From NCBI GenBank assembly GCA_963281255.1, contig OY725488.1, positions 9,087,524 through 9,151,523 of the forward strand: DNA of 64,000 bases, read 5' to 3'. The position numbers and the translations under genes are program-made. Every line of letters starts with the position of its first letter. Position 1 is the stretch's first letter. The notes under the pieces were generated by a model. It saw only the letters and a program-made list of their open reading frames with translations. It had not been told where the DNA came from and searched no databases. Origin of the DNA: Aphrocallistes beatrix (lineage: Eukaryota; Porifera; Hexactinellida; Sceptrulophora; Aphrocallistidae). Shown one piece after another: positions 8,933-46,113 of this stretch.

Positions 8933-9101
8933 CAGGGCCGCTGATAGAATCAAAAGGCTCCGGGGAAGCTCGTATCAATGGGCCCCCTCTAGTATACAAA
9001 ATTATAAAGGTTATGCGCAGCATAGTCGTCTAATTCTGGTAAAGTGGTAAATAATAGGAGGGAATGATTGAAAGTGATAGGTATTAGAGTTATATTAAGT
9101 A

Positions 9102-10877: not shown

Positions 10878-11519
10878 ACGGAAGCCTTAAAACATATAGC
10901 TCTTTTTCCGCTTGCTCCACTCGCTCTTTGAATTAAAGAAAGAAGCGGTTACCACTACAAACTCGATTAAGCTAATTCAATAACACAATTCAATTGTCAC
11001 TGCTGTTATTCATTCTGCACTAGAAATCAACATTAACTTGGATCAGCGTGAAGAAGTGCAGCTGAGTAGTTAGATCTCATCAGTCAGAATTCATTAAAGA
11101 ACCAGTGCTAGCATGACGTATGAGGACAGTATGGTATCAATTGGTGTGCAATTGTATTCTATTTGAATGGTCACGTGTGCTTAAAAACTCACTAAACATA
11201 GCGTGGATGAACAGTATTAATTATCTGCATAGTGAAATACACTATGATTGTTGGTGGGATCTGGAATTGGATTTGGATTGCATCATCTTAAAATATTATT
11301 TGTGAAAAAAGTTGAGAGCAAAGGTTGAAAAGTTGGAACTTCTAATTATAAATTGCTGGTTGACCGAGCGAAAGTGTGGAGGGATCATCAAAAAATGAGT
11401 AAATACAAAAACATAGAATTGTAACTATGAAGTCAATCCAAACAAACTATTTAACAAAATAACTTAAACAAGAAAAGAAACAAAATACTTATCTGAATGA
11501 TAGTATATAAAATTACGCA
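10878..11519. other. Intergenic, no supported gene
   Basis: AT-rich spacer between the hAT element and the subfamily A copy 2 NHL locus. No conserved coding signal seen. Confidence 0.4.
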
Positions 11520-14735: not shown

Positions 14736-16001
14736 TCAGAAAGCTTGTAGACAAGTCTCAGGATTCCTCTGTACTACAATAATCCTATTTGAATTATCTA
14801 GTGCTACTCCAGCAGGATGGTAGAATTTCTCATTCTCAGTTAAGTCTTCATTGGTAATGGTGTGTATTGTATCTCCTTCATTGTTGAATATCTTGATTCG
14901 TTTAGCTAAATAATATGTTACTATGATATTCCCCACTTGATCGATAGTAAAGAAATAACTGAATTCAATCTCTTCTTTTGGTATCAAACATCTTATCAGA
15001 TCTCCTTCTAGAGAAAATATCTGGAGATGGAAAGTGGGACAGTAACCAAACATTACATACATGTTGTTCTGATAGAGTTTCATACTGTGAGTTTTAGTAT
15101 CTGATTGTAAATGAGAAGATTTCAGTTTGATTCTTCTGAGGAGTTTCAGATTCATGTCAAGTACAACTATTGATTGGTTATAAAGCTCACAGCCATAAAT
15201 GTTTGTTTGTTCATCAACCTCAATTCCCCAAATAGGATTCTCTGTTTTCACTGACTCAATTAAGTTGTTAGAAGATTTGTTTAGTTTCAACAAATAGTCT
15301 CCACTCTTCACGAAAAGGAATTCATTGGTTAGAGCTATTCCAGTAGATCCTACTATCCCATCAGTAATGGAGTATAGATGGTTTCCTTCTGAATCGAACA
15401 CTTGAATTCTAGGACAGTACAGATCTGTCACAAATATATTCTGTGTTGTATTGTCAATAGCTATCTGCATTGGATGTGAAATCTGATCAGGACCTTTCCC
15501 TCTAGTAACACGAGACCAGACAGGACGTACTTTCACAGAATAGTCCACACGTTGCACAGGTTTCTCTTTCAGACACACAACCTTACACACATCACTCACT
15601 GACACTTCTACTCCCTCCACATTCCACTCCACCTCTACCCACCCAACTGTCACTCCTTCTCCCCCTAACACTTCTCCAATACCATCTTCCAGACTACGTA
15701 GATTCTTCTGAAGCAGCTCTCTCAGCTTGTTCTCTGTCAGATCTCTCTCCAGACCCTCTCGAGCTGTGTTCAGCTGTTGGAGGAGAGCTCTCTTCTCTGT
15801 CAACTCTACTCTCACTCGATCTACAATCTCATCTAGCTCTCGCAACACACTTTCCTCTCTAGCTGCTAGCAGCTGGTGGAGCTGATAGAAATAGCTTCTC
15901 ACTTTCTCTTTCTCTCTCTGCACCTGACTCCTCAACTCCTCCAACTCTCTCTCCACCCTCTTCCCTCCCAGCAATGATTCTGCCGATAGACGCGTGGCCA
16001 T
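14736..16001 (-). CDS. Coiled-coil/NHL-propeller protein, subfamily B copy 1
   Basis: Single-exon gene of 421 residues from the ATG at 16001. The open frame continues upstream to 16088, but the paralogue at 18654-19919 starts at the same MATRLSAESLL, so I use that start. Residues about 10-130 are Glu/Arg/Leu-rich coiled coil. Residues about 175-421 are divergent NHL/beta-propeller repeats (for example QIAIDNTTQNIFVTD followed by RIQVF). No RING or B-box is present. The 5' flank runs into a subfamily A N-terminal fragment only ~90 bp away. Role unknown; a binding propeller on a dimerising coil is the reasonable inference. Confidence 0.88.
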   Translation of the reverse strand: MATRLSAESLLGGKRVERELEELRSQVQREKEKVRSYFYQLHQLLAAREESVLRELDEIVDRVRVELTEKRALLQQLNTAREGLERDLTENKLRELLQKNLRSLEDGIGEVLGGEGVTVGWVEVEWNVEGVEVSVSDVCKVVCLKEKPVQRVDYSVKVRPVWSRVTRGKGPDQISHPMQIAIDNTTQNIFVTDLYCPRIQVFDSEGNHLYSITDGIVGSTGIALTNEFLFVKSGDYLLKLNKSSNNLIESVKTENPIWGIEVDEQTNIYGCELYNQSIVVLDMNLKLLRRIKLKSSHLQSDTKTHSMKLYQNNMYVMFGYCPTFHLQIFSLEGDLIRCLIPKEEIEFSYFFTIDQVGNIIVTYYLAKRIKIFNNEGDTIHTITNEDLTENEKFYHPAGVALDNSNRIIVVQRNPETCLQAF

Positions 16002-16087
16002 TCCTCGATACAAATAAGAACTAATATCAATAAGAAAAGATAACTGAATAGATCGATCAGCGTGGATATATAAGCACTTTATACTCA

Positions 16088-16348
16088 TTATCTCTCTAGG
16101 ATCAAGTTACATTTCATTTCATCTTTGGCACACTGTAACATCCGTTCAAGTCCTGTTATTGATTGTTTGTGTTTATCTCTCTCTCTTTTGTGAGAACTTA
16201 AGATCTCTTCCAACTCTTTCATTAGTTTTTCTTTCCTATTTCTCAAACAGTCAATCAATTGACGAAAGAAAGTTTCTATTCTCTTTTTCACTTGGGAGAT
16301 TTCAACTTCAAAATCACTTTCACATGAAGCAACTCCTGCTGTTGCCAT
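16088..16348 (-). pseudogene. N-terminal fragment of a subfamily A NHL gene
   Basis: Encodes 80 or so residues nearly identical to the start of the copy at 12760 (MATAGVASCESDFEVEISQV, then the coiled coil as far as DEMKC), then enters unrelated sequence and stops. The sequence after the break point (about 16107) is the 5' flank of subfamily B copy 1, which is shared with subfamily B copy 2 at about 20000-20035. The fragment is thus a rearrangement scar. It retains the four bases missing from the copy at 12591-12600. Confidence 0.8.
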
Positions 16349-18653
16349 TAAATATTAATTCTAAATAAATAGAAAATGCTTAATTACGAGCAAACATAGT
16401 GTCATAACTAAGGATCAACCAATATGATGAGATGTGATCTCTGTATATATAAATATGTGAATTAGAGAATTGCCTCGGTTTGGAAATTTTTCAAATCTTA
16501 TACAGCCGCGTATTTATATGTATATTTCAGTTTATAAATTATTTATACTGCTATTATCATTTTTATCCAACTCCAATAATGCCATTATCAGACCATCACA
16601 TATTATATCAGCAACATCAAACTCTTGTCAGGAGATCGATCACGATTGGACAGAAGGACACCAACACTCATCCAAAAAGTTAGTTCATATCTCAAGAATA
16701 TATCCGAAATAGACAGTTTATCGATTTTTGTTCGTTTCACTTATAAATAGATATAGCTTCAGCTTAGAAATAGAAATAAGCTGTGACATAAAATCAGTTA
16801 CTACGTTTTGTTCAGTGTTCGAGGACTGATTTTGTAAAATAATGGTTCATGTCAATATGGTCGGTCCTACCTTTCAGTTTCAGTTTCAGTTTTAATTGAA
16901 AAAAACAGACCAATGTTATAACAATTTTTATACAAATTTAATCAATCAATTGATTGTAAAACTCGAATGTTAAATTGATGATTAAAAATACTTAGTGATC
17001 GATCGGTAACACATTTTCCAGCACCGGAGTAAGTTATATAATCCCACTACGTAACTAGAAATGTAATAGAAATACAAATAAAAGAAGTGATCGTACAAAA
17101 ACTCATATAAAGGATCTGAAGGTATAATTATACGTATACAGTAGTTTGTGGTAGTATTGCTAATAAAATAGGTTAGTAAGGGAATACTCTATACCATTGC
17201 AGTATACAGTCGACTCCCGTTAGTACCCCAGGGGACCTTGAAGCTTATATCCTTATGCGGGATAACTCAGGACAAAATAGCTGATTTTTCTGATACCGAG
17301 AACAATTTTGAGTCTATAATCGTGCTGAAATATTTTAGTTGAAATTTTAGTTTAGAAAATATATCAAAAACAATTTCAGTTCGATTTCAGTTCCAGTTAG
17401 CAGTCGTAATCTACTTTAGAGGAGACAGGTAACTTCGTCACAGAAATAACAACAGGGATATTCTTTGAGAATCATATAAACTAGAATCTCATTAAACAAT
17501 TGATCAATTCAAAAGATAACTACAAATACCAACTAACTCAGCTACACACGGAGAATATTAGTTAATTGTTCTCAGTGCCGTGGCTAGCAGTCAGCTCCAA
17601 GTTCAGTCCTGCTTTTTTCACTCTTCTATTGAGCTAATTTTCTCCAGTGTTCTGCTTTTACATGAAATTTCGCCATTATGTCCCGCATTTTCCATTTAAT
17701 GTATATTTCATTTCCATTGCGTCCCGCCATGTCCCGCCAAATTCAACGCTTTGACCGCTTTTATCACGGCTCAGGTTGTACGGTATTCATAAGCTGAATT
17801 CTCCTCCGAACTTCGCATCGGTTTCGCTCCATTTCTGAGTCAACATTCTCGGCACACAACAGACACATTCTTAGTTTACATTCAAACGTTCCTGGAGCAT
17901 CGATTGGCTGAGCTCGTAACTGATCCACAGTGTCTACTGTCTGACACTCCTCCACTCTTCCATCCTCCATCTCGATTCTCTGCACAGCTACAACATTGTC
18001 CTCGGGTGTCGATGTAAAGGTCTGCAGACTGGACTCATCTCTGATAGATATCTGCCAGACGGAATTCTTCACTTCTCAACTGTGACGTGAAGAACACTGG
18101 TCTGTATGCGTCAGTCATGTGGACATGTATCTCTGAGACGTGGTTTCCTCCAGCGTTAAAATTATATGACAGCACTTTGCTTGAATTTTTACATTTTCGC
18201 TGCTCATATCAACTTGGATTCGAAACGATCAAAATAATAAATTAAATCCAGTGGCGTATTCAGCTTTAGCCTTTTGGTGGTGCGTCTCCTCTCATAAACA
18301 CTTTAGAAACATAATTCGCTTATAAAAGATAAAAATTAAGGTCTCGGTTTCGCAGTCCCTTCGTGTAGTTAAGAGTACTACTTCTCCTCATAAACCGCAT
18401 GACACAAGGTTCAGATCAAAGATTTAAACTTCGGAAATTGAGAAATTTTTCTAAACTTAGAGTCTATAGCAGAAACAGATTATATGTAACAGTGGGAACC
18501 GACGGGACCTAAATGTCAATTATCTGATAATTACTCATAGAAAAGACAGCAGAAGACAAAATTCTATTTAGTAGAATTCAATAACACATAAAATAGAACA
18601 AAATAAACAATTATCAATAACAGTATTTAGTTTCAAAACAATAGTTAGTTCAA
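16349..18653. other. Intergenic with hAT/pogo-type ends
   Basis: Mostly AT-rich. At 17206 there is a pogo/Tigger-like end (CAGTCGACTCCCGTTAG after TA) with no partner found. At 18247 there is an hAT-like end (CAGTGGCGTATTCAG) related to the element at 2032. A coding-like fragment at 17764-18170 is listed separately. Confidence 0.4.
17764..18170 (-). pseudogene. Unrecognised decayed coding fragment, Cys-rich C-terminus
   Basis: A minus-strand frame of about 100 codons ends at 17764 and has ordinary protein composition, with several cysteines near its C-terminus (CKLRMCLLC). It has no ATG of its own. A second open piece directly upstream (about 18075-18170) is in another frame, so a frameshift or an intron separates them. 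I could not match it to a family. It may be a relic of a secreted or membrane gene or part of a transposon. Confidence 0.3.
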
Positions 18654-19919
18654 TCAGAAAGCTTGTAGACAACTATTAGGATTCAAATGTGCTACAATAA
18701 TCCTATTTGAATTATCTAGTGCTACTCCAATAGGAAAGTAGAATTTCTCATTCTCAGTTAAGTCTTCATTGGTAATGGTGTGTATTGTATCTCCTTCATT
18801 GTTGAATATCTTGATTTGATTACCAAAATAATCAGCTACTATGATATTCCCCACTTCATCGATAGTAAAGAAATAACTCAATTTAATCTCTCCTTTTGGC
18901 ATCAAACATCTTATCAGATCTCCTTCTAGAGAAAATATCTGGAGATGGGAAGTAGAACAGTGGACAAACATTACATACATGTTGTTCTGATAGAGTTTCA
19001 TACTGTGAGTTTTAGTATTTGATTGTAAATGAGAATATTTCAGTTTGATTCTTCTGAGGAATTTCAGATTCATGTCAAATACAACTATTGATTGGTTCTC
19101 ATACTCACATCCATAAATGTTTGTCTGTTCATCAACTTCAATTCCCCAAATAATATTATCTGTTTCCACTGACTCAATTAATTTGTTAGAAGATTTGTTT
19201 AGTTTCAACAAATAGCCTCCCCTCGCCACGAAAATGAATTCATTGGTTAGAGCTATTCCAGTAGATCCTCCTACTATCCCATCAGTAATGGAGTGGAGAT
19301 TTCCTTCTGAATTGAACACTTGAATTCTAGGACAGTTCAGATCTGGCACAAATATATTCTGTGTTGTATTGTCAATAGCTATCTGCATTGGACTCGAAAT
19401 CTGATCAGGACCTTTCCCTCCAGTTACACGAGACCAGACAGGACGTACTTTCACAGAATAGTCCACACGTTGCACAGGTTTCTCTTTCAGACACACAACC
19501 TTACACACATCACTCACTGACACTTCTACTCCCTCCACATTCCACTCCACCTCTACCCACCTAACTGTCAATCCTTCTCCCCCTAACACTTCTCCAATAC
19601 CATCTTCCAGACTACGCACATTCTTCTGAAGCAGTTCTCTCAACTTGTTCTCTGTCAGATCTCTCTCCAGATCCTCTCGAGCTGTGTTCAGCTGTTGGAG
19701 GAGAGCTCTCTTCTCTGTCAACTCTGCTCTCACTCGATCTACAATCTCATCTAGCTCTCTCAGCACACTTTCCTCTCTAGCTGCTAGCAGCAGATGGAGC
19801 TGATGGAAATAGCTTCTCACTTTCTCTTTCTCTCTCTGCACCTGACTCCTCAACTCCTCCAACTCTCTCTCCACCCTCTCCTCTCCCAGCAATGATTCTG
19901 CTGATAGACGCGTGGCCAT
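18654..19919 (-). CDS. Coiled-coil/NHL-propeller protein, subfamily B copy 2
   Basis: Intact single-exon gene of 421 residues, closely similar throughout to the gene at 14736-16001, including its start MATRLSAESLL and its C-terminus (CLQAF). It has an N-terminal Glu/Arg-rich coiled coil and C-terminal NHL-like propeller repeats. The two genes also share about 110 bp of 5' flank and their 3' flank, so the duplication unit was larger than the coding region. An in-frame ATG four codons further upstream (MNRG) is possible but is not conserved in the paralogue. Confidence 0.88.
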   Translation of the reverse strand: MATRLSAESLLGEERVERELEELRSQVQREKEKVRSYFHQLHLLLAAREESVLRELDEIVDRVRAELTEKRALLQQLNTAREDLERDLTENKLRELLQKNVRSLEDGIGEVLGGEGLTVRWVEVEWNVEGVEVSVSDVCKVVCLKEKPVQRVDYSVKVRPVWSRVTGGKGPDQISSPMQIAIDNTTQNIFVPDLNCPRIQVFNSEGNLHSITDGIVGGSTGIALTNEFIFVARGGYLLKLNKSSNKLIESVETDNIIWGIEVDEQTNIYGCEYENQSIVVFDMNLKFLRRIKLKYSHLQSNTKTHSMKLYQNNMYVMFVHCSTSHLQIFSLEGDLIRCLMPKGEIKLSYFFTIDEVGNIIVADYFGNQIKIFNNEGDTIHTITNEDLTENEKFYFPIGVALDNSNRIIVAHLNPNSCLQAF

Positions 19920-21086
19920 TCCTCGATTCAAATACGAACTATTATCAATTAGAAAATATAACTGAATAGATCAATCAGCGTGAACATATAAGCACTTTAT
20001 ACTAATTATCTCTCTGGGATCAAGTTACATTCATAACTGTAACATTTCATGGAACTTACCACATCGAACCAAGAAATCATTTTAGTGGTGAATCAATTGC
20101 ATTTAAATGTATTTAAAAATTTGAAAAATATCAAACAAACTTCATGAAGTATATAAATATTTGAGTATATATGGGGGAACTTCAAATCTGGGGGAATTTG
20201 AAGTTCCCCCAGGGGAAATTCAAATTGGAGTTTCCACTGGGGGGAATTTCAATTGGAGTTTCCCCTAGTGGAACTTTAAATTTCCCTAGGGGAATTTAAA
20301 TTTCCCCTGGGGGGACTTCAAATTCCACCAAATTTGAAGCTTCCCCATGACATATATATGCATTAGATTCTATGTACTTATGTACTGTTTTGGATTGGGA
20401 GAATACAATGTCAACTATTCTACTACCGAGACAATACAGGGTGGAACAAAAGCCTTGGCCGGTTGTGAATCTAATTAGTATTCATTCTTTACGAGTACCT
20501 CCTATCATAGTATCTAGAGTAGTACTACACCACAGTTAGTTACTATATAGATATGCAATTTAAATGGTAGTAATTTTAACTAGATCACACCTCTACTTTC
20601 GAGTTTATTTTTCTGAAAATCACTTTTTCCTGATAAAATTAATGTCAGCGATCTTGGAATTGAGGTCCGTTGTAAAGCAATTAGAATGTTAGAATGAAGC
20701 CTAACATGAAAAGGAACTGCAGAAAGGCTTCAGAAAGGTTTACTCGAATTTGGAACAAAGGATTTTGCATGAGATCTCGGGGGAATTTTGCATGAACGAT
20801 TGGATGAAATGAAGACCGGAGATAATTTTTAACCGTAAAAGGTATGGACGGAGGTCCAACCTACCTTGCTTTAAAATATGGTTGCTAATATCCCTAATAG
20901 GGTAAAATTAGTTGCAAGAAATAGTGAATATTTTGGTAGAAAGTAATTCGAGACAATACAAATAAGAAACATTAAATTCTACACACATACAAGTAAATCA
21001 CTAATTGGAATTAAATCTAGAATGGAAAGAAAGGATGGAGAATGGTAGATAAAAACTGCTGGAAAGAGAGAATAGAGACATTCTTT
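19920..21086. other. Intergenic
   Basis: Contains the shared 5' flank of subfamily B (to about 20035), the G-run inverted-repeat cluster at 20173-20346, and an IS630/mariner-like end (TACAGGGTGGAACAAAAG) at about 20435. A weak plus-strand coding-like stretch at 20640-20880 is broken by stops and may be a transposase relic. Confidence 0.4.
20173..20346. repeat. Cluster of imperfect inverted repeats, G4-5 AATTTGAAGT C4-5
   Basis: About eight alternating modules of the form GGGGGAATTT / AAATTCCCC are packed into 174 bp, many of them complementary to their neighbour, so the strand can fold into a chain of hairpins. The pattern stands out in otherwise AT-rich DNA. It is not part of any element I can bound. 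Confidence 0.75.
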
Positions 21087-26733: not shown

Positions 26734-28255
26734 CTAATTACGGATATGTACAAGCTTTCTAAGATGAGTGGTAGGTGCAGGCATCTGCTTCTGACCTTCG
26801 TCTGTCCTCCTCTCTGCCACTTCTCCGTTCACCATGGTTAGGATGGACATGAGGTCGTGCTGGTTGTGGTGGTCCTTCATCAGGTCGCAGAGGGACTTGA
26901 TGTACCAAGTCCCTTCGTTGTGAGACCTCCAGGAGACGTATCCAGAGGAGGTGGGGTAGGCGATCAGGAAGTCAGCCGTCTCTGGGAGGTCTTCAGAGTC
27001 GTAGTACTCTGTCTTGTCTGTGAAATCTTGAGGAACCTCATCGATCAGACCAGAAGAAACCCCTAAATCCTCCATATCCCCCCTGCAAGCCTGGATGAAG
27101 AATATCTTGGGTTTCCCGAATAGAGTTTTACAGGTACTCGCGTAGAAGTGAGACATCATCTCTTTGAGTTTTACTTCAGCTCCATCTGACCCGAAGAGAA
27201 CGTCATTCTCAGCTCCGTGCGTCAGAATACAGCAAATGAAGGAGTCGTATCCTGTGTGATCCACCTCTGACAGTTCCTTCATCATCAACCCCATTTTATC
27301 TGTCAATTCAGAATATATGTTAGAATGTCATTACACTTCTGGTGATTAGTTTGAATACAAATATAGAATAGAAATAAACCAGATTCAAATCTCCACCAAA
27401 TAAGGAATATATCATCCAAATTTGGTGCAATTTGGTTCAATAGTATTTCCGTGAAGGAGCAGACGGACGTCGCACGCCGATCATGACATACGGCATCTCC
27501 TCAGTAGTGCCCTTCCCAAATAAAGTTATGAAGTTACTTTCTACTTTTGTATATATTTTAAGCATCAAAATGAATGAATAATGAGATAAATCAGATCAAA
27601 ATTATTGCTCCATGGATAGATGATTAGAATAGTTGTAGATCGATATTTCAGCTTCTAAGATCTGAAAATTTTCTGGGGGCTTGCCCTTGCCCCCAGAACC
27701 CCCTGATCCAAAATCCTAGCTACATCCCTGCATTACCGCTGGTCTTCTAATTCTAGGATAGTCCAATTTAAGTTGCCCCCTCCCTTAATTAAAATTTCTG
27801 GAGCTGCTACTGCATCTCCTATACTAGGAGCTGCAACGGAATGATAGCAATGCTATATTATGAAAATGAATCAAACGAGATCCTCAAATATCACATTTCG
27901 TGTCTTACGAGTCGCTAATGGAGCTGCACTATCAGTCTGTCGACTGACATATTTCATTCCTAATAGTCCGTAATGAGCTACTCATCACCTTTACTGAGGT
28001 CGTTGTACACCCTGACTTCGTAGTTGAGGTAGGAGAACAGCTCACAGAGTCTGTCTCTGTCCATTTCAGATCCTTTCCTCTTTCCCAGCTCATCAGTGTC
28101 GAAGTTCTGATTGTTGAAGATAGCGCAGATTCCGTGAGGCACCTTGTCCATTGGGTAGGAGTGAATGCCACCTGTTTCCACCTCAGGGGGCTCGCGAGGT
28201 TCATCTTTAGTCCGCTGACTCTGAAACAGATATTGTCCTGGCGGAATTATTTGCT
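26734..28255 (-). CDS. Caspase catalytic domain, caspase-8-like
   Basis: Two exons: 27989-28255 and 26734-27299, joined across a 689-bp intron (GTGATG...ACAG) in frame. All hallmarks are present: DSFICCILTHG with the catalytic His, the pentapeptide QACRG with the catalytic Cys, VSWR with the substrate-binding Arg, and GTWYIKSLC. The FICCIL and GKPKIFFIQAC phrases and the C-terminal KQMPAPTTHLRKLV are closest to caspase-8/10. An Asp-rich linker follows the large subunit. The 28255 boundary is an acceptor (TTCATTCTAG). The open frame continues to 28346 but reads like intron. Its phase fits the donor at 30470, so this is probably the 3' half of one gene with 30471-32232. Role: initiator-type protease of apoptosis. 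Confidence 0.93.
27386..27510. repeat. Dispersed repeat, copy 2 (in caspase intron)
   Basis: Matches 56955-57095 and 23205-23300: TTCAAATCTCCACCA, AAGGAATATAT, TTTGGTGCAATTTGG, then GCAGACGGACGTCGCACG and GGCATCTCC. It helps explain why this intron is 689 bp. An hAT-type right end (complement of CAGGGATGTAGCTAGG) lies further along the same intron near 27735. Confidence 0.65.
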
Positions 28256-28510
28256 CTAGAATGAAGGAAATGATTTGAATGAAAAGAGACTGCATATTTA
28301 TATCAGAATTTATGTGGATTTGTATTAATTTGTATTGAAATTCCACGTTTCTTATGGAATTATAGTCTCAAATGAATTTTCGCTTAACACCATATCATTA
28401 GTAGCTCAAAATAGAATCGACAATAAATTAGATACGTAATTGGTGGGAGTAACCGAATATAAATTATCACTAAATCTCTATTAAACTATTGAATTGATTG
28501 GCTAAGGATC

Positions 28511-29269
28511 TCATAGTGTGGGAGAGGGTGAGGGGAGAGGGAAGGTGAAGGTACAGGTGAAGAGGAGGTGTTTATCAGTGGAGACAGTCACTACACCACT
28601 TCCATCCAGCTGATTGCTCGTACTAATCAGCCCACCAAACTTCATGCACTGATTCTCCACATTCCATTTCAGTCCAGTGGTTGTTACGGAGGAAGCAGGG
28701 CCTGCAATGGGGACGAGACCGCAATATCCGTCGAGGAGCGGACTGGAAAGCTCCAGGACGTGTCTCCCTGGGGGAAGCAGGAGGCAGAGGGAGGAGTCGG
28801 AGAGGAGATAGGCGGGAGTCTTGGGACGCAAGGCTTCCCACTCGAACAGAGAGTTGAGGCAGGCCAGAACCTGGTCGAACCTGCCGCTGAGGGAAGAAAG
28901 GATGTAGACGGAACAGGCCGGACCAGGGATGTGACGCAGGGACTTTAAGAGGTCTGTGGAGTCCTGGTCTCCTACTTCAATTACCGGCACTCCTCGAGAC
29001 CGGTAGAACTGCAGCACGGCAGGAGTAGCGGAGTCTAAGTCCCCGACGATGCAGTCAGGGGTAAAGGCCGGGTCCGATCCTCCGGTCAGCTCATGCAACC
29101 GGTTTGCACCGCCGTCTGCGCAGATCCGGTACCGGCACCGGGAGAAGAGGAGGAGGGAGAGGGCAGGAGGGAGCGGCTGGTTGACGAGGATCAGAGCGGA
29201 CTCTGGCGAGGAGAGAGCATCGGCACTGAAGATACGGAACGGAGAGAAAGTGCTGGACTCAGAAGCCAT
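28511..29269 (-). CDS. TPK1: Thiamin pyrophosphokinase
   Basis: Single exon of 252 residues, near the family norm of about 245. It transfers pyrophosphate from ATP to thiamin to make the cofactor TDP in the cytosol. Motifs: CADGGANRL (about residues 50-58), CIVGDLDS, DQDSTDLLKSL and GRFDQVL in the N-terminal catalytic domain, then the beta-rich thiamin-binding domain with TGLKWNVENQ and the closing TSNQLDGSGVVTV. The ATG at 29269 gives the right N-terminus. It lies between the caspase exons and the DED exons on the same strand, probably nested in that intron. A mariner-type MITE sits 28 bp upstream of the start codon. GC content is much higher than in the flanks. Confidence 0.95.
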   Translation of the reverse strand: MASESSTFSPFRIFSADALSSPESALILVNQPLPPALSLLLFSRCRYRICADGGANRLHELTGGSDPAFTPDCIVGDLDSATPAVLQFYRSRGVPVIEVGDQDSTDLLKSLRHIPGPACSVYILSSLSGRFDQVLACLNSLFEWEALRPKTPAYLLSDSSLCLLLPPGRHVLELSSPLLDGYCGLVPIAGPASSVTTTGLKWNVENQCMKFGGLISTSNQLDGSGVVTVSTDKHLLFTCTFTFPLPSPSPTL

Positions 29270-29296
29270 GGACGATCTAGAACCTGAGGAGTGCTA

Positions 29297-29811
29297 CCAG
29301 GTTGGACAATAAGTTTTGAGACTCATGTAATTACATACAATCTTGACATTTAATACTTCTTATATTGATAGCACTATTGGCATATTAGTTCCCTTCAAAA
29401 TATCTATTTGTTTGCTTTGGAATTGTATCACTTGTGAGGATTTATTTACTTGCTATTTGATATTTTATTGAAATCATGGAAAAGTTGGAATATCGGGCAG
29501 TAAGGCTACAATTCGTGATTGCAAGTTCGAGGAACTTAATCACACCCTTACTTCCCTAATATATCACCATTGACTATTACCTATTCTCCAATCTCAAAAG
29601 ACATCTGCGGGGAAGAATTTTTGGATACAATCTAGAGTTGAAAGAGGCCTGAGTCCAAATATTATAATTTTGAAAAAATTTGAATTTTGAGTCTTCGTGA
29701 TCGATGGTCTCGTGTGATTCATGTTAAGGGGCAATATATTGAATAACTGGAGTTAGATTGTTTCTAATAGTTATTAAGTTGTCAGGTCTCAAAACATATT
29801 GTCCAACCTGG
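29297..29811. mobile_element. Mariner-like MITE with TA duplication
   Basis: The terminal inverted repeats CCAGGTTGGACAATAAGTTT and its complement (one difference, ACATA for ACTTA) are flanked on both sides by TA (29295-29296 and 29812-29813). Length 515 bp, no transposase. The sequence of the ends is mariner-like. It lies directly upstream of TPK1. Confidence 0.85.
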
Positions 29812-29882
29812 TATGTGTGCTGTTCAATTAATCGGTACTAAGCCTTAAATGATCGTAATCGTTAGTGTGGCCTTTATAAATA

Positions 29883-30056
29883 CAGTCGACTCCGCTTAAT
29901 AGGGCCACCGGTTAATCGGGACACCTTTGGCAGGACCGGAATAGTTCTCACAAATAGAAGCTAATGCAAAATACTTTCGGTTATTAATAGGGTTCTGCGC
30001 TTAATCGGGTCAAATTGTCCTCTGACCGATGTGGTCCTATTAAACGGAGTCGAGTT
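29883..30056. mobile_element. Pogo-like MITE, copy 1
   Basis: TA, then CAGTCGACTCCGCTTAATAGG at the left; complement of AACTCGACTCCGTTTAATAGG at the right, then TA. 174 bp. The same family occurs at 50966-51152 and 63558-63685. Confidence 0.85.
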
Positions 30057-30470
30057 TATATGTATTTCACTGCAAAGAATTGAGTAAAGCACTTCTAAGT
30101 CCAAAAATATATTTTCGATGTTTGGCAGTACTTCGAGCGATTTCAGACTCGGACAAACAATATTTTGAGACATCTTTAGACAGATTTCTGTGTCGTAACC
30201 CGCAAAGGGGAAAGACGTGTTCATTCAAAATAATGGTTAATCTAAACAAACTCGGAATAATCGTTCGTAAAAAGGGCTCAATCAGAGTCTTTCAAATTCT
30301 GAATCGAAATTGAAAATCACATTTTGAGTAGTTTTGTAGAGACTGTATTTTGATCAGAAAATATGTAGAATTTTGATACTAATTAATGGAAAACCCACAT
30401 TTCTAATCATAATTCTAATTATTTTCTGATTAAATATACAGTTTCGTTTGTAAACAAGCGACTATCTCAC

Positions 30471-32232
30471 CCAGGCTTGATTCGTCGATCTTCCCATCGC
30501 TCGAGCTCCTGAACAGCTCAACTCTCTTGCAAAGCTTCTTGTGGGATATTCGGAGGTAGGCTTCCAAGCTGTCCAGGTTGTCCTCTCCTAAGAATTTCTT
30601 CTCCATCATCTTGTTCAGGATCGTGCCGACATCTTTCATCTAATGGAAGACAATGGGAATTATCGTTGTAATGCAGCGGTGGGCAACCTGGGTCCGCGAG
30701 ACTCAATTTGATGGCCCGCGACTCTTTCAAAACTCTCTATTATGTCCCGCGTGTTAGAGATTGTAATACAAAATGGGCCCGCCTAATTTTGGAATGAAAT
30801 TGATGCTGAATATCAATATATTTTCTATAATCATTATATAATGATTCAATTTATTTTATTATTAGTTATTTTTGCTTTCATAAGTATAATTATAGTTGTT
30901 ACATTGCTTCCATATAGGTTTCTAATGTCAGTTCTTACTACGGCCATGGTGGCCCCAATTGTGGCCCACTTAAGTATCAAGGCTGCCCACCACTGTTGTA
31001 TGAGATGTTCTATAAATAGTACAACTCACTGCTTTCAGTTCCTCCTCCGAATAGTTGTCATTGAGAATGAATTTCAGCTCATCCACAGCTCTGTTATCAT
31101 CCTTGAGAGCATCCACGATAAAGTCTATCAGTTTCGTGAACTCTTGACTCACAGAAGAGGCATTCGCAGTCACGGCGTCTTTGGACTGATTGGGAAACAT
31201 CTGTGGGATTAAGTGAGGTCCCATTTGGTTGGGTGGGTTGAACTCTTCGGAAAAAGATTGGTAGTTAGTTGGAAATCTGTTAGGGCTGGAGTAGTTGGCA
31301 GGCAGGCTGGGGTTATTAATAATAGGCGGGAAAGAGCTGTTATTAGGCGGGAATGAGCCGATATTAGGCGGGAAAGAGCCGATATTTTGCGGGTTGGGGT
31401 TGAAATTAGGCTGCGAATAATAGTTGGCGGGCCCAGGTGAGTAGTTTACGGAACTAAAGTTATTAGGTTGTTGCGGTTGGTTATTCGCTCCTGGAGTTGA
31501 ATAGTTATGAGCCATTTGGTTGTTAGGAAGAGTTGAATAGTTTTGAGCCATTTGGTTGCTAGGAGGAGTTGAATAGTTTTGAGGCATTTGGTTGCTAGGA
31601 GTTGAATAGTTTTGAGCCATTTGGTTGTTAGGAGGAGTTGAATAGTTTTGAGGCATTTGGTTGTTAGTTGAGTAGTTGCCAAAAGCCGTTTGGTTGTTGG
31701 GAGGTAAGGCAGTGCTGTTAGGAGGTAACGAGCTGCTGGTATGGACCGAGTAGTAATTAGACGTTGGGTTACCAGGAGGGGTGGAGTAGTTAGAAGGTTG
31801 AACGAGTTGAACAGAGTTGCCACTTGACGGTGGGAGAATGGTTTGCTGTGAGTGGTAGTTGCCAGGCTGTGAGGGCTTCTCACTGGGCTCACTAGGAGGC
31901 GCATTGGCTCTATACACCTGCGGACGGTAGGGAAACGGAGAAGGCTGAGGTGTAATATAGTAGGGCATCGGGTACGATTGATATTGTTCGACCCCTGGGA
32001 ATCGCTGCTGCATTTGGACAGGGATTTGGATCTGGCGAGGTGGGGGGTTTATGACGTAGGATTGAGCAGGTCTTTGGTACGGAGCGTTCATAGTAGATCG
32101 AGATGGGACAGAGGAGATTTGGTATTCTCCTGGGACCCCGGGGACTGGAAAACGCGGAGACATCGCAGGAATCGAGTAAGTGGTAGCTGGAACCAGTTTT
32201 GCATCATCTTCTAAGTTTTGTTCATCGCCCAT
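30471..32232 (-). CDS. Asn/Pro/Tyr-rich region plus DED-like domain (probable N-terminus of the caspase)
   Basis: Exon 1 is 31030-32232 from the ATG at 32232 (401 codons). Exon 2 is 30471-30639, with a 390-bp intron (GTGAGT...TTAG). Residues about 20-355 are low complexity, rich in Pro, Asn, Gln, Tyr and Ser, with several NNQMAQNYSTPP-type repeats. Residues about 362-447 look like a death-effector domain: helix-rich, DELKFILND, then EKKFLGEDNLDSLEAYL and HKKLCKRVELF, the spacing and pattern of FADD/caspase-8 DEDs. If exon 2 is read through, it stops at 30430. However, a strong donor, CTGG|GTGAGA at 30470, joins in phase to the caspase acceptor at 28255, giving 734 residues in all. DED identity is from pattern only. 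Confidence 0.75.
30674..30995. mobile_element. hAT MITE inside the DED-gene intron
   Basis: The ends are CAGCGGTGGGCAACCT at the left and the complement of CAGTGGTGGGCAGCCT at the right. The flanks TTGTAATG and TTGTATGA are a near-match 8-bp duplication (one indel). Without the 322-bp insert and duplication the intron would be about 60 bp. Confidence 0.85.
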
Positions 32233-36571: not shown

Positions 36572-37177
36572 TTAAAGAGGATTAACAAAATTTACACTAA
36601 ACTTAGAGCCTTCTGCTAGATAAATCAGCTGATTAGTGGGATCTATACATATTGCTGCAGGGCTGTATACATATTCCTTAACTGCATGCCAGATAGATAG
36701 AGTCCTGAAACGGTGTGAATTAGAGATTTTCATAATATGACACTTTTCTTTCAGTGTCCTCTCTATCTCTTCCATCTGAGAGTTGATCGACACGTCAGGG
36801 AACGAAATCTGTTCTGAAAGGATCTTCTTCATCTCTTCTTCAATGCTCTTGAGCTGTTTTTGTAGGAACTCATTCAGTTTGTTAGCATTCAGTTCCCTCT
36901 CTGTATAATATCTGTTCTTTGTCAGTTGTTTCAAGCTAACTCTTCGCTCTTGGATTTTAGCTTTGATTTCAGCTGGGATGGCATCCAACTCTGCCAAGAG
37001 TGTCACTTCTCTTCTTGCCACAATTTGGTGAATCTGTATGAAAGTGTCGCAGAGTTGTCTCTTCTTCTCTGCCACTTGTAGAGTCAGATCTTCTAGAGCT
37101 CTTTCCAATTCTGTGATGGAGACGTGTCGGGGATTTTGTATGGATGCTACTGGTGCTTGTGGGTACCTTGCTGCCAT
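36572..37177 (-). pseudogene. Coiled-coil/NHL protein, subfamily C copy 1, truncated
   Basis: 201 residues from the ATG at 37177 (MAARYPQAP...), closely similar to residues 1-195 of the gene at 42220-43506: the coiled coil and the first propeller strand. It then loses homology at about 36600 (after LIYLAEGSKF) and stops eight codons later. The remaining NHL repeats are missing. The sequence beyond the break (ATTAAAGAGGATTAACAAAA) also occurs at 32738, so an unclassified repeat may lie at the break. A short coiled-coil protein could still be made. Confidence 0.8.
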
Positions 37178-37550
37178 TCTTTTCTTTTGTTCGTTGTAGA
37201 GTGTTTGTTAGATATATTAGTGAGTTTGTGAGTCTATTTATACATTTCTCTTAGATTAGTAATAGAATTAACATAGTAGTAAAATATAGGATTGAAGTCT
37301 CCTTAGCTATCCCATTACACATGTGGTATGTAATTCCTTTTATTATCGTTAGACTCAGTCCAATTTAGCTGGAATCAATTTCAAAATGGGACAATGGTGT
37401 TTCAGTATTGTCTAATTCTTGCAAAATAATACTATCTGAAAGCATATTTTCTCCAAACTAGGAAACTTCCCGATTGATGTATCTAAATTTAGATTATTAG
37501 TATTAAATACATGGTGGAGACATCCTACGTATTTGGGCATGAACCTAGAC
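37178..37550 (-). promoter_or_regulatory. 5' flank conserved between subfamily C loci
   Basis: About 350 bp directly upstream of the ATG are recognisably shared with 43507-43856 and 47191-47577 (TTTTCTTTTGTTCGTTGTAG next to the ATG, then GAGTCTATTTATACATTTC). It was probably copied with each gene, so it is likely to include the promoter and 5' UTR. No specific factor site is identified. Confidence 0.55.
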
Positions 37551-38084
37551 ACTATTAGAAAATTAATATGATAGATCAGGTGCTACGCTTGCATGCGCTA
37601 GGCGGCTTGACCTGAACCCAAACCAGAACCAGAGTCAATGTGCTATAAACTTCCCTCCATTCCAGCATGAAAATTAGTGGCATAAGGCGTATACGACACT
37701 TTACAGTTACAGTCAGTCACATTACAGTTACTTGCATCTAAATTACTGTGATTGAAATATACAGATGTTCAGTAGTTTCTCAATAAGGGATAAATGATAT
37801 CATACATGTTTATAGGATGATGGACTGAGGGAACATAACTTTAAATACAATATTGATTGTATTGTAATATCCAAAAAGTCCACTTACTACTTCATCACTT
37901 TTTTGGCATGAAAGAAGGAAGTTATATGAATGTCCACTCTAAGCTAATTATTTTTTAAATGCTACCATACAATTTAAATGCTACCATACATGTTCGTAGG
38001 GTGATGGACTGAGGCAAATAACATTAAATGTAATATTGATGTATTGTAAAATCCAAACGGTGATGCGTCGAGGTCCACATGTAT

Positions 38085-38234
38085 ACGTTAGTCCTAATTC
38101 AGACTTGTAGACGTTATTACTACTCCTAAATTGGCATTAGTCCTACGTTTTCAGGTGTAGGCGTTAATCCTACTCCTAAGATTGGCATTAGTCTTACCTT
38201 TTCAGAAGTAGGCGTTAGTCCTACTCCACAATTG
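38085..38234. repeat. 51-bp minisatellite, three units
   Basis: Units starting at about 38085, 38134 and 38185, each with TTAGTCCTA...TAGGCGTTA...CCTACTCC and diverged by several bases. No coding role seen. Confidence 0.7.
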
Positions 38235-38589
38235 TCCAGGATTTCAATGAGATATATGTAAGAAGAAAGCGAAGAGCAGCATTTTGAATTGAGAAGATTA
38301 GCCAAATACTATGAAAGAGGCATTTATGAATGAAGAAGTGGGTGAGTGGTATTTAAAGTGATTGATAATGTATAAAAGGGACAAGTGGTACTTTTTGGCA
38401 ATGGTCGATTGAAATAGTATGATTTGCGCAACATTATGGAGGATAGATGTGAAGGATACGCGTAAAGGAGCATTTTAGAACGAAATTTAAGAATAGAACT
38501 AACACCAACATGCGAAAAGGAAGGACTAGTGACCATTTATGTGTAGGTTTGACGACAAAATCTGAAAAAAGTAGGACTAGTGCCCACTT

Positions 38590-38671
38590 TGACAGTTTCT
38601 TCAATCAATTCGTTACAGATATAATATATATATATATATTATATATATTAATCGAGTTTTAAAAGTAGAGA
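38590..38671 (-). mobile_element. Helitron-like 5' fragment, copy F
   Basis: On the minus strand it starts TCTCTACTTTTAAAACTCG after A, then a TA-rich microsatellite and CGAATTGATTGAAGAAA as in copies A-C. It is lost beyond that. Confidence 0.5.
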
Positions 38672-39106
38672 TATATGAAGGTGTGAAAACCGCGGAATCA
38701 AAAAGGTCAGACATAACTAAGATCAGTCGATACACTCAAATGACACCTTATGTATGACTTCCTATCCAACAATAGTACATTTGACATGTCTAACTCTAAC
38801 CAATTACGAATTATTAACGGGATTACCATATAAGGGAAGGTGTTGAAACCGCAGAAACTCAAAAACCACAAATATTTCAAGTATTCCAATATGGCCAATG
38901 AAATCAGCATATGCTACTTCTTATTCACCAATAATACATATATCACCAAAATGTGATGCCAAATGTACCAAACGTAACTCATCGATATTAATTTTCAGCC
39001 TACGCTAATTTTACCGTAAAATGAAGTTGAAAGTCCGTGTATTTAAGAAGTCCGTGACTATCTACAAGGCTGAACATTCTGTAACAAAATATACATACAT
39101 GATCAT

Positions 39107-39295
39107 CAGGACCGGCGCAACAAGGTGTCCTGGGTGTCCCGACTACTGACTCAAAGGCAGGACATGATGCGGTGCTTGGACAATTACTAGGTTAGTTTAT
39201 TGTATTTAAAGTTATCTGAAAATGTATTGTCTTTGGGTGTCCAGACAAGCACTAAGCTAGTCGGTGACCACACCTCATAATACGTGGCGCCGGCC
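39107..39295. mobile_element. hAT-like MITE with 8-bp duplication
   Basis: The left end CAGGACCGGCGC and the right end (complement GGCCGGCGCCACG) are inverted. The 8-bp ATGATCAT flanks both sides (39099-39106 and 39296-39303). Confidence 0.7.
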
Positions 39296-39692
39296 ATGAT
39301 CATCGCTTGGAACAGGTATTGTAAAATGACATAGGTGGTATTCTACGCAAATGCCCGTTTTATGAAGTGGTTATTAATGAGGTTCGACTGTAAGAGAGCT
39401 GATGTACGTAGTAGTAGTAAAATTCAAAATAAAAACTAAAATAAATTTCGAAATACCTACAACCTCAGCTATCAGAATAAGTAATAGTTTTCTAGTGCGA
39501 GAAAATCATATAGTAAAAATTAAAAAAACTTTAGGGCACGCATTGATTGAAATTTGGCGCATGGAGGATTGTTTAGAAAGATGGATTTGTTATTTTCCCT
39601 AATACTGCCTGGGATTATCCAACTCCGAGGGATACCCCCAACTCACTGGAAGAAAAAGTTTCAAATTTTTGAAGATCTGGGAGGAAGAAGGG

Positions 39693-40473
39693 AGAAAACT
39701 TTTCGCATAGAACTAAGATCTGAATGGGTTAATACGAAAAATTTGGATTTTTTTCATGGAATGTTGCTACATTCCAGTGTTGCTATGGAAACGTGTTTTG
39801 GTCAGTTGAGGTCATATCTTGAAAACAGCGATAGCTAGACATCCAAATGTGATTCCATTTGATAGCAAATATACTACTTCCTATTAAGCGATAATATAAT
39901 TTCGACGTCTAAATTCAATGGTTTACGAGATATTCGAAAAATTACCAAATGTGACCAATATGATAAATTATCTAATAACTCGTAAACCATTGAATTTAGA
40001 CAAATAAATTATATTATCACTTAATAGGAAATAGTCTATTGGCTATCAAATGGAATTACATTTGAATGATATGACTCCAACTGACCAAAACACGTTTCCA
40101 TAGCAACACTGGAATGTAGCAACATTCCATGAAAAAATCCAAATTTTTCGTATTAATTAACCCATTCACATCTTAGTTCTATGCGAAAAGTTTTATAATA
40201 AAAACACTTAGAAGTGCCCTTAAACGACCTCTGAAAATCTCCAAATTTGTCACAAATGTACCCTTTTGCGCAACCATATGGTGACTAATCTAAATTTTAA
40301 CAACGGATATGGGTACTTTGACACCATATTTATATATGCTGGTAATACATTCCTAAGCTCTATTGTGCTTTGTTAATGATTTAAGGCAGCTCATGTATTA
40401 GTTCAACCATCTTCTACCGCATCCCTAGTCCCAAATCCGCAAGTTACTCTGAGGCCTTATGTATAGTAGGCTA
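39693..40473. mobile_element. Foldback element, copy 2 (left arm truncated)
   Basis: 39693-39955 is nearly the exact reverse complement of 39960-40195 (for example GAATGTTGCTACATTCCAGT with its partner). The right arm runs on to 40473, with the same terminal part as the right arm of copy 1 (GAACCATCTTCTACCGCATC). The matching left 280 bp are absent. Confidence 0.8.
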
Positions 40474-41218
40474 TGTACCAATGTATTATTTCCTGTGGTT
40501 ATGGAACTTCTCGCAGAACATTTGGTACATGATGCTCACCAACTGATAAACCTTTAGAATCCTATTGAAGATGTATGGATAACATGGGGGGGGGCAATTT
40601 TAACGGAGTCCAATTGATAATACGTATTCAATAGATCGTTTCTTTACGCTCTTAAGTCTCCATCGTAGGTTAATATTAGCCTCATTCAAACTAGCGGGAG
40701 AGATCCCAATAATAAAATTAATCTATCTTCTTAATGATCACTGAATAAAATTTCGAAATTCCCTTCTTTATTCAATTGTTCAAGCAAAGAATTTATTCTA
40801 CAACGTGACGAAAGAATCGCTTCAATAGCAAGATCATGGAGTTACTACGGTTTGAAATGACCCTGTGGCTAGGAACTGTAGGACAACAGCTAGTTGGGTA
40901 GTGGTAGGTATCGAATAAATTCATATTACTGATTTGTGGAGAAATTTTGCGATCCTTCGATGAAGTTTTATGAAATTATGCGTGTTACTCTTATCGAGCA
41001 ATAAACTCAGTGTCATTGTAGGCATCTAATGGATTCAATCGATCACGAAAGACTCTCTATCTTGCTAAACTTCTTACAGTTTGGATCTCTTTAAGAGGCG
41101 AGAAAAAGCCATCATTCAAGGAAATTAAGAAATTTATTTCGAAGATTATTTGAATTGCATTTTTATGTGTACTTATACTAAATACGTAGGATGAATTTAA
41201 TAAGCATTTAATAAATAA

Positions 41219-41993
41219 CAAGCACGCTTCGCTTGTTTGCGCTGCGCAGCTTGCGGACACTGTGTGTCCGCAGTGTCGCCCTGCAGGCGCCTAGAGTCAC
41301 TCAATCAAACATATTTTGGAATTGTTTTCCTTTAAATAAATATTGTAAACAAAGGTCGACGAATAATTTCTCATATGGATCCGAAAATATAATATTTAAA
41401 AGCTACAGCACTAAAATCCCATGTCAACCGTTGGAAGCTAGACTCTAGCCCATTTTTGTAATTTGTTTACTTTATGTATCTATTGTAAACAAAAGTAAAC
41501 AAATAATTTATCATATAGATCTGAAAATATGTATTTCGAAATCTACACCCCTGAAAACCCCAAGTCACCCGTTGGAAGCTAGTCTCTAGCATTACTTTTA
41601 AAATTCATCAAATGGTGCGAAAATATGTATATAAAGGTGTGAAAATATGCAGATAATCTTTTTTATAGCCATACACTATAATACATTTAAGATATCAAAC
41701 ATAAGTTGTGGCTTTGAAGTATTAATAACAATGACGACCTATTTATTGTAGTGTCGTACTTGTACAATAATTTCTATTGTGATAGTGTAGTCATTTATTT
41801 TGTATAGAAAAAGTGCGAAAATTGTTTTCCATTTTTTTGCAGAGATGTGAAAATTTCGCTTAGATCTTAGAACTTAATCGTAGTCATATCATTTGACACC
41901 TACATGCAAATTTTCAACTTCTATGACTTCCCAATTCTTCAATCAATTCGGACAAACACACACAAAAAAAACCTAGCATTTTAATATATAAGA
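41219..41993 (-). mobile_element. Helitron-like non-autonomous element, copy B
   Basis: Minus-strand 5' end TCTTATATATTAAAATGC after host A (complement of 41994). The 3' end CAAGCGAAGCGTGCTTG is followed by host T (complement of 41218). 775 bp against 779 bp in copy A, and the stretches next to both ends align well. No protein. Confidence 0.6.
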
Positions 41994-42219
41994 TTATACT
42001 AATATGTACTCACAAACACAAAATTACTCAGCTTCACAGAGGATGGCAAATCAAAATATATTAGGGGGGATAGTTTTTGTAGGGAGGAGACAGTTTTATA
42101 AAAACAAATCTCCAGGATACCAAATAATAACACTACTAAACACTAATTGAGTACAATTGATAGACAGACTAATATGACATGAACAATAATGAATAAACAC
42201 ATATATTATTAGTTGAAGG

Positions 42220-43506
42220 TTAGAAGGCATGGAGTCCCGAGTAAGTATCCATAATAAGAATTCTTTGTTTGGAGTCTACTGTTATACCCATAGGTTCCCT
42301 TAACTCTCTACTCCATCCCTCATCCTCTTCACCAAACTTCTGTATCAGGATTCCCTCTGGAGAGAATATTCTGATACAGTGACCTTCACGATCACTCACT
42401 AGAATATTCTCAAAGGAATCTAGACAGAAGTACCAAGCATTCTTGATGTCGTTTCCTGTTACTAGGGAGCGTATGAGGGTACCATCAAGTTTGAATACTT
42501 GGATTGGATTTGGATGGTAGATATCGGTATAGTAGCTGAACAGAACAAACATTTGTTGTTTGTGTAAGATGATGTCTCGAGGAATTGTATCTTCGTTAAA
42601 CGAGATAGCCTTCAGAATGATCTTCTTAGTAGGTTTGAGGTTGAGATCAAATATCTGTACTGTTAGAGACTTCTCGAGACAAGTGTAGATATTCGATCCT
42701 TCTATAGATATCCCCCACAATGGAGTTTTAAGTTCCAACTTTTTAACTGTTTCTCCTTTCTTGCTTAGTTTGCGTGAACCCGTGCGCGTAGGGAGCATAT
42801 AGAAGCCTTTCGTGGCTGTCAGATAGATGTGGTCTTTATGAATCTTCATGCTGTGGCAGTATCTCATCAGTGGATTGCGTAGAGTTGAGTGGTGATTGCC
42901 CTCACTCGTGAAGACTTGTATTCTACCAAATCCAGCACCCTCTCCTACATAAATCAGCTGGCTAGTGGGATCTATACAGATTGCTGTAATGAAGTATACA
43001 AATTTTTTAACTCCATTCCAGATAGGTAGAGTCCTGAAACGGTATGGATTAGAAATTTTCATAATATGACACTTCTCTTCCAGTGTCCTCTCTATCTCTT
43101 CCATCTGACAGTTGATCGACACGTGAGGGAACGAAATCTGTTCGGAAAGGATCTTCTCCATTTCTTCTTCAATGTTCTTCAGCTGTTTCTGTAGGAACTC
43201 GTTCAGTTTGTTGGCATTCAGTTCCTTTTCTGTATCATCTCTGTTATTTGTCAGCAGTTCCAAGCTAGCTCTTCGCTCTTGGATCCTAGCTTTGATTTCA
43301 GCTGGGATGGCATCCAACTCTGCCAAGAGTATCACTTCTCTTTGTGCCACAATTTGGTGAATCTGTCTGAAAGTGTCGCAGAGTTGTCTCTTCTTCTCTG
43401 CCACTTGTAGAGTCAGATCTTCTAGAGCTATTTCCAATTCTGTGATGGAGACGTGTCGGGGATTTTCTATGGTTGCTACTGGTGCTTGTGGGTACCTTGC
43501 TGCCAT
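42220..43506 (-). CDS. Coiled-coil/NHL-propeller protein, subfamily C copy 2 (intact)
   Basis: Single exon, 428 residues. Residues 1-150 are coiled coil (EKKRQLCDTFRQIHQIV, KLNEFLQKQLKNIEEEMEKI). Residues about 185-428 are NHL-type repeats (AICIDPTSQLIYVGE, RIQVFTSEG, and near the end GITVDSKQRILIMD). No RING, B-box or transmembrane segment. This is the only complete subfamily C copy and serves as the reference for the broken copies at 36572 and 46114. Its role is not known. In TRIM-NHL relatives the propeller recognises protein or RNA partners. Confidence 0.9.
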   Translation of the reverse strand: MAARYPQAPVATIENPRHVSITELEIALEDLTLQVAEKKRQLCDTFRQIHQIVAQREVILLAELDAIPAEIKARIQERRASLELLTNNRDDTEKELNANKLNEFLQKQLKNIEEEMEKILSEQISFPHVSINCQMEEIERTLEEKCHIMKISNPYRFRTLPIWNGVKKFVYFITAICIDPTSQLIYVGEGAGFGRIQVFTSEGNHHSTLRNPLMRYCHSMKIHKDHIYLTATKGFYMLPTRTGSRKLSKKGETVKKLELKTPLWGISIEGSNIYTCLEKSLTVQIFDLNLKPTKKIILKAISFNEDTIPRDIILHKQQMFVLFSYYTDIYHPNPIQVFKLDGTLIRSLVTGNDIKNAWYFCLDSFENILVSDREGHCIRIFSPEGILIQKFGEEDEGWSRELREPMGITVDSKQRILIMDTYSGLHAF

Positions 43507-43856
43507 TCTTTTCTTTTGTTCGTTGTAGAGTGTTTGTAGTTTGTTTGTTAGATAAATTAGTGAGCCTGTGAGTCTATTTATACATTTCTCTTGATAATGG
43601 AACTAACATAGCTAAATATAGGATTGAAATCCCCTTCGCTATCCTATGTAGTTACTTTCATTATTGTTATATTTAGTTCCAATTTAGTTGGAATCAGTTT
43701 CAAAGTGAGACAATGTTTTTCAGTATTGTATAATTCTTGCTAAATAATACTAGTTGGAAATGTATTTTCTCCAAATTAGGTAACTTCTGATTGATATATC
43801 TAAATTTAGATTATCAGTATTAAACACATGTTGGAGACATCCTACATATTTAGACG
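43507..43856 (-). promoter_or_regulatory. 5' flank of subfamily C copy 2, shared with two other loci
   Basis: Aligns with 37178-37550 and 47191-47577. It probably contains the promoter and 5' UTR. This copy carries an extra short direct repeat (GTTTGTAGTTTGTTTG) near the ATG. Confidence 0.55.
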
Positions 43857-44016
43857 TGGTTCATCCAGTATGCAACACAAATGATTGGAATAATAAAATA
43901 CGACAAGTAATAATAGAATACTATAGGACATATTCATGATTGTACGCATTGCTATGTATTTAGGATTAGTTCCACTGAAATGTTGAGAGTGATTTCGTCG
44001 TTTCGAGAATACTCCT

Positions 44017-45440: not shown

Positions 45441-46113
45441 TATTCACTATTCAGAACAGGACTAGTTTCTCTAAAGACTTAGTATTAATTACTCAAAGAG
45501 TGATTTTATACTATTCTAATAGATTCTATTTGTTGAAACAAAATATATTACAGTTCTTCTCCTAAGACTTTTTATATTGCTTTTAAATTGTCATTTCTAA
45601 AAAACTACGTATTAACTCAACCAACTATCCTAACTAGTTGAGAGATTAGAGAGCTATAATTATGCGGGAGATTATTTTGAAACATTAAAATAAGGAACAT
45701 AAAAAGGGATACATTTAGACAATCTCCATTGGTTGGTATTAACGAGGTTGTACTCAGATATAAATTCACCAAAATAGAGTTCTGATAGTATATATTAGCA
45801 ACGACCGAGAAACAATTCCATAAATTCTCATAATAAGTATATAAAAGCTTCGGGAATATGCGATTGAAATGTCAATCAGAAGTGTGAAAATTCTTTGTCG
45901 ACACAAAAACATTCGAAATAAGATTTTTTCGATATTTTAAAATTTACCACTTATTCTCATTGGTTCGACTTGTGTAATTTAATTACATTCTAGAATGTGA
46001 TGAATCACCTAATAAAGTCTAATATAAACACTAATTGAGTACAGTTGCTAGACTAAGATGACACAAACAAATAATGAATATTAATTACATAAACATTTAT
46101 TATTAGTTGCAGC
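45441..46113. other. Intergenic
   Basis: AT-rich. Putative promoter of the TRAF-like gene on the left, 3' end of a subfamily C pseudogene on the right. No further feature seen. Confidence 0.4.

Follow-up and report, generated by a model that had tools for sequence, protein, structure and literature searches.

A thiamine pyrophosphokinase gene that probably lies inside an intron of a same-strand, putative DED caspase gene in the glass sponge Aphrocallistes beatrix

Introduction

Caspase-8 and caspase-10 carry DEDs at the N-terminus, two in tandem. According to the description that PMC11251625 gives of its caspase tree, the clade with dual DEDs holds Protostomia, Deuterostomia, Medusozoa and Anthozoa, and the Porifera, for which one sponge genome was used, stand in another clade with CARD or bare caspases. 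In the part of PMC12909245 that deals with them, seven DED proteins are given for the demosponge Dysidea avara, so DEDs are already known in sponges.

Nested genes are frequent in animals. Figures quoted in PMC4394429 are about 10% of genes in Drosophila and 1% in human, with two-thirds of the nested genes on the opposite strand. For the glass sponge Aphrocallistes vastus, the account of nesting in PMC10282587 gives 2432 nested genes among 19,578 (12.4%, against 5-10% typical elsewhere) and 12,409 single-exon transcripts; it adds that about 10% of nested exonic bases looks normal in several animal phyla and that the annotation method matters. Given these figures, a nested single-exon gene is ordinary.

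The window analysed here is a stretch of 64,000 nucleotides from the glass sponge Aphrocallistes beatrix (contig OY725488.1). In it, a gene for thiamine pyrophosphokinase, TPK1, lies between exons that appear to encode a DED and exons that appear to encode a caspase domain, all on the minus strand. If a single intron surrounds TPK1, the locus resembles other nested genes of animal introns in that a complete gene sits in the intron of an unrelated gene, and it differs from most of them in that both genes are on the same strand. This is an ordinary kind of nesting and no new kind of system. A partial literature search, made with one spelling of the enzyme name, found nothing on a TPK1 nested in a caspase gene. 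If the junction around TPK1 is real, a DED joined to a caspase exists in a sponge, and an enzyme gene that lies wholly inside an intron of a same-strand cell-death gene would offer a convenient test of the effects of nesting on the host.

Gene model of the locus

The features of the proposed gene and of TPK1, in the direction of transcription, are as follows.

31030..32232 (1203 bp), minus strand: exon 1, an open frame with the start codon, about 370 residues rich in P, S, N and Q, and the first part of the DED
30471..30639 (169 bp), minus strand: exon 2, remainder of the DED, ending in a phase-1 donor
28256..30470 (2215 bp), minus strand: intron 2, proposed host of TPK1, GT...AG, phase 1 on both sides
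28511..29269, minus strand: TPK1, thiamine pyrophosphokinase, intronless, intact open frame of 252 aa
27989..28255 (267 bp), minus strand: exon 3, encoding the linker and the first part of the caspase domain (Peptidase_C14, 31.5 bits alone)
26734..27299 (566 bp), minus strand: exon 4, encoding the remaining caspase domain, in which the motifs THG and QACRG lie, and the stop codon (Peptidase_C14, 144.3 bits alone)
26669 (ATTAAA), 26585 and 26519 (both AATAAA), minus strand: candidate poly(A) signals downstream of the caspase stop codon, three of the ten AATAAA/ATTAAA words in 7.1 kb

When spliced, the four minus-strand exons gave a single open frame of 2205 bp, encoding 734 amino acids and a stop. 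The introns measured 390, 2215 and 689 bp, and all three had GT...AG ends. A first-pass annotation had proposed this model, and its coordinates, exon lengths (1203, 169, 267 and 566 bp), splice dinucleotides and sum of 735 codons were all reproduced. It had placed TPK1 in the third intron, which was wrong: of the three introns that separate the four exons, the one of 2215 bp comes second.

A composition count showed that residues 1 to about 370, encoded by exon 1, are rich in P, S, N and Q. Tandem arrays with units of 21, 36, 42 and 69 bp were present in exon 1 at 31319-31411 and 31493-31667 (minus strand). This repeat-bearing part looks like a disordered tail on the predicted caspase.

Domain homology supports two of the three predicted junctions, exon 1-2 and exon 3-4. 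The DED reached 40.3 bits as a 99-aa region (Pfam cut-off 35.9) once exons 1 and 2 were joined; exon 2 alone, read through to its stop, scored 24.4 bits, and the tail of exon 1 alone, read on into the intron, had no DED match in Pfam. Within the whole 734-aa protein the DED scored 34.6 bits, slightly below the cut-off. The joined protein had one continuous caspase domain over exons 3 and 4, covering positions 2-231 of the 233 of PF00656 (186.8 bits). The junction between 30471 and 28255 falls in the linker, so that domain homology gives it no test.

The junction around TPK1

Minus-strand splice sites were scored over 7.1 kb with a generic table that was not trained on this genome. By this table, the donor CTGG/GTGAGA (last exon base 30471) came second among the 316 GT sites. 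Among the 387 AG sites, the acceptor TTCATTCTAG/AG, with 28255 as the first base of its exon, came ninth. The other proposed donors, 31030 and 27989, ranked 8 and 5 of 316, and the other proposed acceptors, 30639 and 27299, ranked 24 and 51 of 387. Since the acceptor of exon 4, which is backed by domain homology, ranks just 51, the rank of a site is a rough guide.

A comparison within each reading frame set the two sites apart. In the open frame of exon 2 (30636-30428), the donor at 30471 scored 3.66 and the next best of seven GT sites scored -2.73. In the caspase open frame (28367-28150), the acceptor at 28255 scored 4.72 and the next best of 13 AG sites scored 0.03. Both sites are in phase 1, a match that would occur by chance in one case in three. 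The strong donor at the end of exon 2, the strong acceptor of exon 3 and their equal phase, on which the single-gene proposal had been built, were thus confirmed. From them, as the sole strong donor and acceptor of two frames in equal phase, we infer the 30471-28255 junction. The locus is therefore quite probably one gene of four exons with TPK1 on the same strand within intron 2. The original proposal of one gene with a nested TPK1 holds as the best-supported model, and its decisive junction is the part that we infer.

In this model, the four exons would encode one initiator-type caspase, in which a long P/S/N/Q-rich tail is followed by a single DED, a linker and the complete caspase domain. 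If it works as other DED caspases do, its DED would gather zymogens on an adaptor or receptor for mutual activation. TPK1 would be transcribed from its own start inside intron 2, and splicing of the caspase transcript would remove the TPK1 stretch together with the intron.

Some observations weigh against one gene. The closest paralogue, a single-frame caspase on C14 that is 41% identical, has no Pfam DED match in its N-terminal part, and the DED of the whole protein is under the cut-off. No second DED caspase was found in the genome. A DED in the C14 paralogue and tandem DEDs in a caspase on C10 had been picked out by eye and found no support: they had no Pfam DED and no PDB match, single-sequence hhalign comparisons were weak, and the C14 part had no clear relative in the genome. 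These candidates were not counted for the one-gene model.

Repeat elements and alternative readings

Intron 2 contains three dispersed inverted-repeat elements.

29295..29813: dispersed element 1, with 28-nt inverted ends and arms 96% complementary, lying 25 bp ahead of the start codon of TPK1
29875..30064: dispersed element 2, arms 82% complementary, very abundant (at least 78 matches with 40 of 1702 candidates scored)
30339..30445: dispersed element 3, repeated and self-inverted, containing the in-frame stop of a DED-only model (at least 97 matches with 40 of 140 candidates scored)

Genomic copies of element 1 elsewhere were 93% identical across nearly the full length and 95% identical across a part. 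The element has two AATAAA words on the gene strand; the five other aligned copies all had two as well, and the spacing of 23 bases was kept in four of them. Between exon 2 and TPK1 there are AATAAA words at 29469 and 29446 and an ATTAAA at 29354, and intron 1 also holds such words, at 30860 and 30855. A DED-only transcript could end at the AATAAA words of intron 2, a further point against one gene.

These words bear on the reading in which two genes flank TPK1, namely a DED adaptor encoded by exons 1 and 2, with its end in intron 2, and a short caspase transcribed from a start directly upstream of exon 3. We consider this unlikely. The adaptor would have its in-frame stop, TAA at 30432-30430 as first annotated, and the three poly(A) words just mentioned downstream of it; however, stop and words lie within dispersed repeats, the stop in the element at 30339-30445. 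For the short caspase, an ATG at 28295 is open, unspliced, into exon 3 in frame, the caspase domain is complete without exons 1 and 2, and the lack of a Pfam DED in the closest paralogue would fit. Against this, the frame from that ATG crosses the pyrimidine-rich stretch ahead of the acceptor, and the caspase promoter, the 5′ leader and the 3′ end of TPK1 would all be squeezed into 255 bp. A scan of the intron for ATG-to-donor segments that fit exon 3 (donor score of at least 1), which covered coding first exons, found two, both using one donor inside TPK1. Two separate genes would also leave the strong donor and acceptor of the same phase unexplained.

The poly(A) words might instead serve a locus that makes both forms, a spliced DED caspase and a DED-only decoy that inhibits its own caspase, with the DED-only transcript ended by poly(A) signals brought by element 1. 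This reading is compatible with the one-gene model, and as a statement about the locus it is also unlikely, if anything a shade more so. The AATAAA of all five other copies is in its favour, and work cited in PMC7290577 is said there to have found that nested genes cause premature ends of host transcripts. However, AATAAA words are common in A+T-rich DNA, as the ten AATAAA/ATTAAA words of the 7.1 kb indicate, and the DED-only product is a guess. Quite improbable is the further proposal that the locus toggles between the full caspase and the DED-only decoy by means of the poly(A) signals of a transposed element, and so ties the only intact TPK1, the gene of an essential vitamin enzyme, to the transcription of a death protease.

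Rather than being an independent unit, TPK1 could also form, as an alternative, the 3′ part of the host transcript, made from the host promoter through acceptors at 29283 or 29276; this is the least probable of the readings and, in our estimate, very improbable. Element 1 speaks for it: this repeat stops 25 bp short of the start codon of TPK1, so that the place of an own promoter would be occupied by the element or lie within it. The two acceptors are there, with ranks of 30 and 37 of 387, but they are weak, and chance alone is expected to give such ranks. The stretch from TPK1 to exon 3 has no canonical poly(A) word, which we rejected as a sign of shared transcript ends. Among 22 open frames of at least 350 aa, 8 had a canonical word inside an equal 255 bp, in a control that is rough, as the exon-1 frame of the present gene is among the 22, together with no fewer than two that are antisense or alternative to a likelier gene. 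The missing word thus tells little. The reading as one gene of four exons is followed below.

Type of caspase

The catalytic domain of the joined protein is complete and has the motifs THG and QACRG, which we take to be those of the catalytic His and Cys. Among PDB chains, caspase-7 scored highest (181.4 bits), followed by caspase-8 (168.2) and caspase-3 (165.6); the match to caspase-8 already starts in the DED, at query residue 50, ahead of the catalytic domain. In BLASTP with the catalytic part, caspase-3 scored 171 bits, caspase-8 157, caspase-6 156, caspase-9 144 and caspase-2 106. A tree of 12 rows paired the catalytic domain with the C14 paralogue (support 89/91, below the tool's star) and with no particular human caspase, caspase-1, -7 and -10 being outside the tree.

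One DED stretch was found, at residues 381-445 of the 734, and Pfam found no second DED in tandem. For the DED region alone, the first PDB rows were caspase-8 prodomains, at a non-significant E of 0.057. The active-site pentapeptide is QACRG here and QACQG in the PDB chains of caspase-8; caspase-10 also has QACQG. The stretches FICCIL and KQMPxP that had been flagged in the catalytic domain are real: FICCIL and KQMPxPTxxLRK are common to caspase-8, and KQMP and LRKKL are present in caspase-9 too.

The label "caspase-8-like" in the first-pass annotation could therefore be kept in part. These stretches agree with it, as does the order of DED and caspase domain if the exons are joined; the single DED and the QACRG do not, the scores are mixed, with caspase-7 or caspase-3 ahead of caspase-8, and the tree favours no one human caspase. 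Provided that the proposed junction is right, the protein is like caspase-8/10 in having a DED N-terminal to a complete caspase domain, a likeness that rests on caspase-8, as caspase-10 was outside the comparison. It differs from them in its one DED, its QACRG and its long P/S/N/Q-rich tail, and the tree did not group its catalytic domain with caspase-8. If the junction holds, the protein would be a DED caspase by architecture, and not a proven caspase-8.

TPK1 and its origin

The identity of the gene at 28511-29269, its intactness and its lack of introns were confirmed. Both TPK domains were above their Pfam cut-offs (TPK_catalytic, 91.6 bits against 30.7; TPK_B1_binding, 71.6 bits against 22), and the TIGR01378 equivalog model gave 133.8 bits (cut-off 76.4). 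The best PDB matches were chains named Thiamine pyrophosphokinase 1 (9hjc, 3s4y and 1ig3; top score 180.3 bits), which are alike in both domains; the alignment covered residues 24-240 of the 252. The coding sequence of vertebrate TPK1 is spread over several exons, whereas the sponge gene is a single exon.

Besides the TPK1 of the window, a whole-genome search up to E 10 yielded four fragments, which belong to two broken copies on C3, so the window TPK1 was the sole unbroken TPK found by that search. The fuller C3 copy aligned at 70% identity to most of the coding region of TPK1 (29199-28505), and the alignment contained no intron-sized insertion. The two copies (L032 and L033, G000:C3:754500-768500) are about 9 kb apart and have flanks common to both (86-98% identity), which makes a local duplication likely. 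No caspase remnants were found in about 4.5 kb around each, so these copies are no evidence of an earlier nested arrangement.

The 252 uninterrupted codons are those of an intronless copy, as a retrogene would have. The search of the sponge's own genome up to E 10, which a divergent multi-exon parent could escape, found no intron-bearing TPK parent. Because TPK1 is intronless, it is likely to be a retrogene, derived from a processed copy, or to have lost its introns.

Related proteins and neighbouring genes

The genome searched comprised 100.5 Mb in 28 contigs and gave 58 caspase-domain matches, counted exon by exon. Of these, 25 lay within 109 kb in a dense caspase array (G000:C17:338779-447685). 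Elsewhere, one frame of 1739 aa (L042:800-6019, G000:C18) had NACHT, Roc, CARD and caspase domains, each above the Pfam cut-off, and its predicted product resembles a whole death-signalling platform in a single protein. Another frame, of 1973 aa (L041:783-6704), had Roc and caspase domains. The term "Roc-COR" was not found in a partial literature search.

One long frame on C13 (L009, G000:C13:63455-66664) joined a DED-like part to NACHT; its DED scored 35.7 bits, against the cut-off of 35.9. Comparable DED matches recurred on C13, C3 and C4. The proteins with these DED-like parts are possible upstream partners of the putative DED caspase. Wnt genes, which to our knowledge are missing in glass sponges, had no match in the genome; the search was equally silent in control genomes, so that their absence does not follow from it. 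In Dysidea avara, a legend of PMC12909245 lists CASc and COR among the domains linked to NLRs.

The locus is flanked in the window by seven long single frames on the minus strand (5479-19970 and 36572-46740) that apparently form one family. Its members have a coiled-coil-like head, a propeller-like tail, or both, and the two that were scanned matched NHL repeats.
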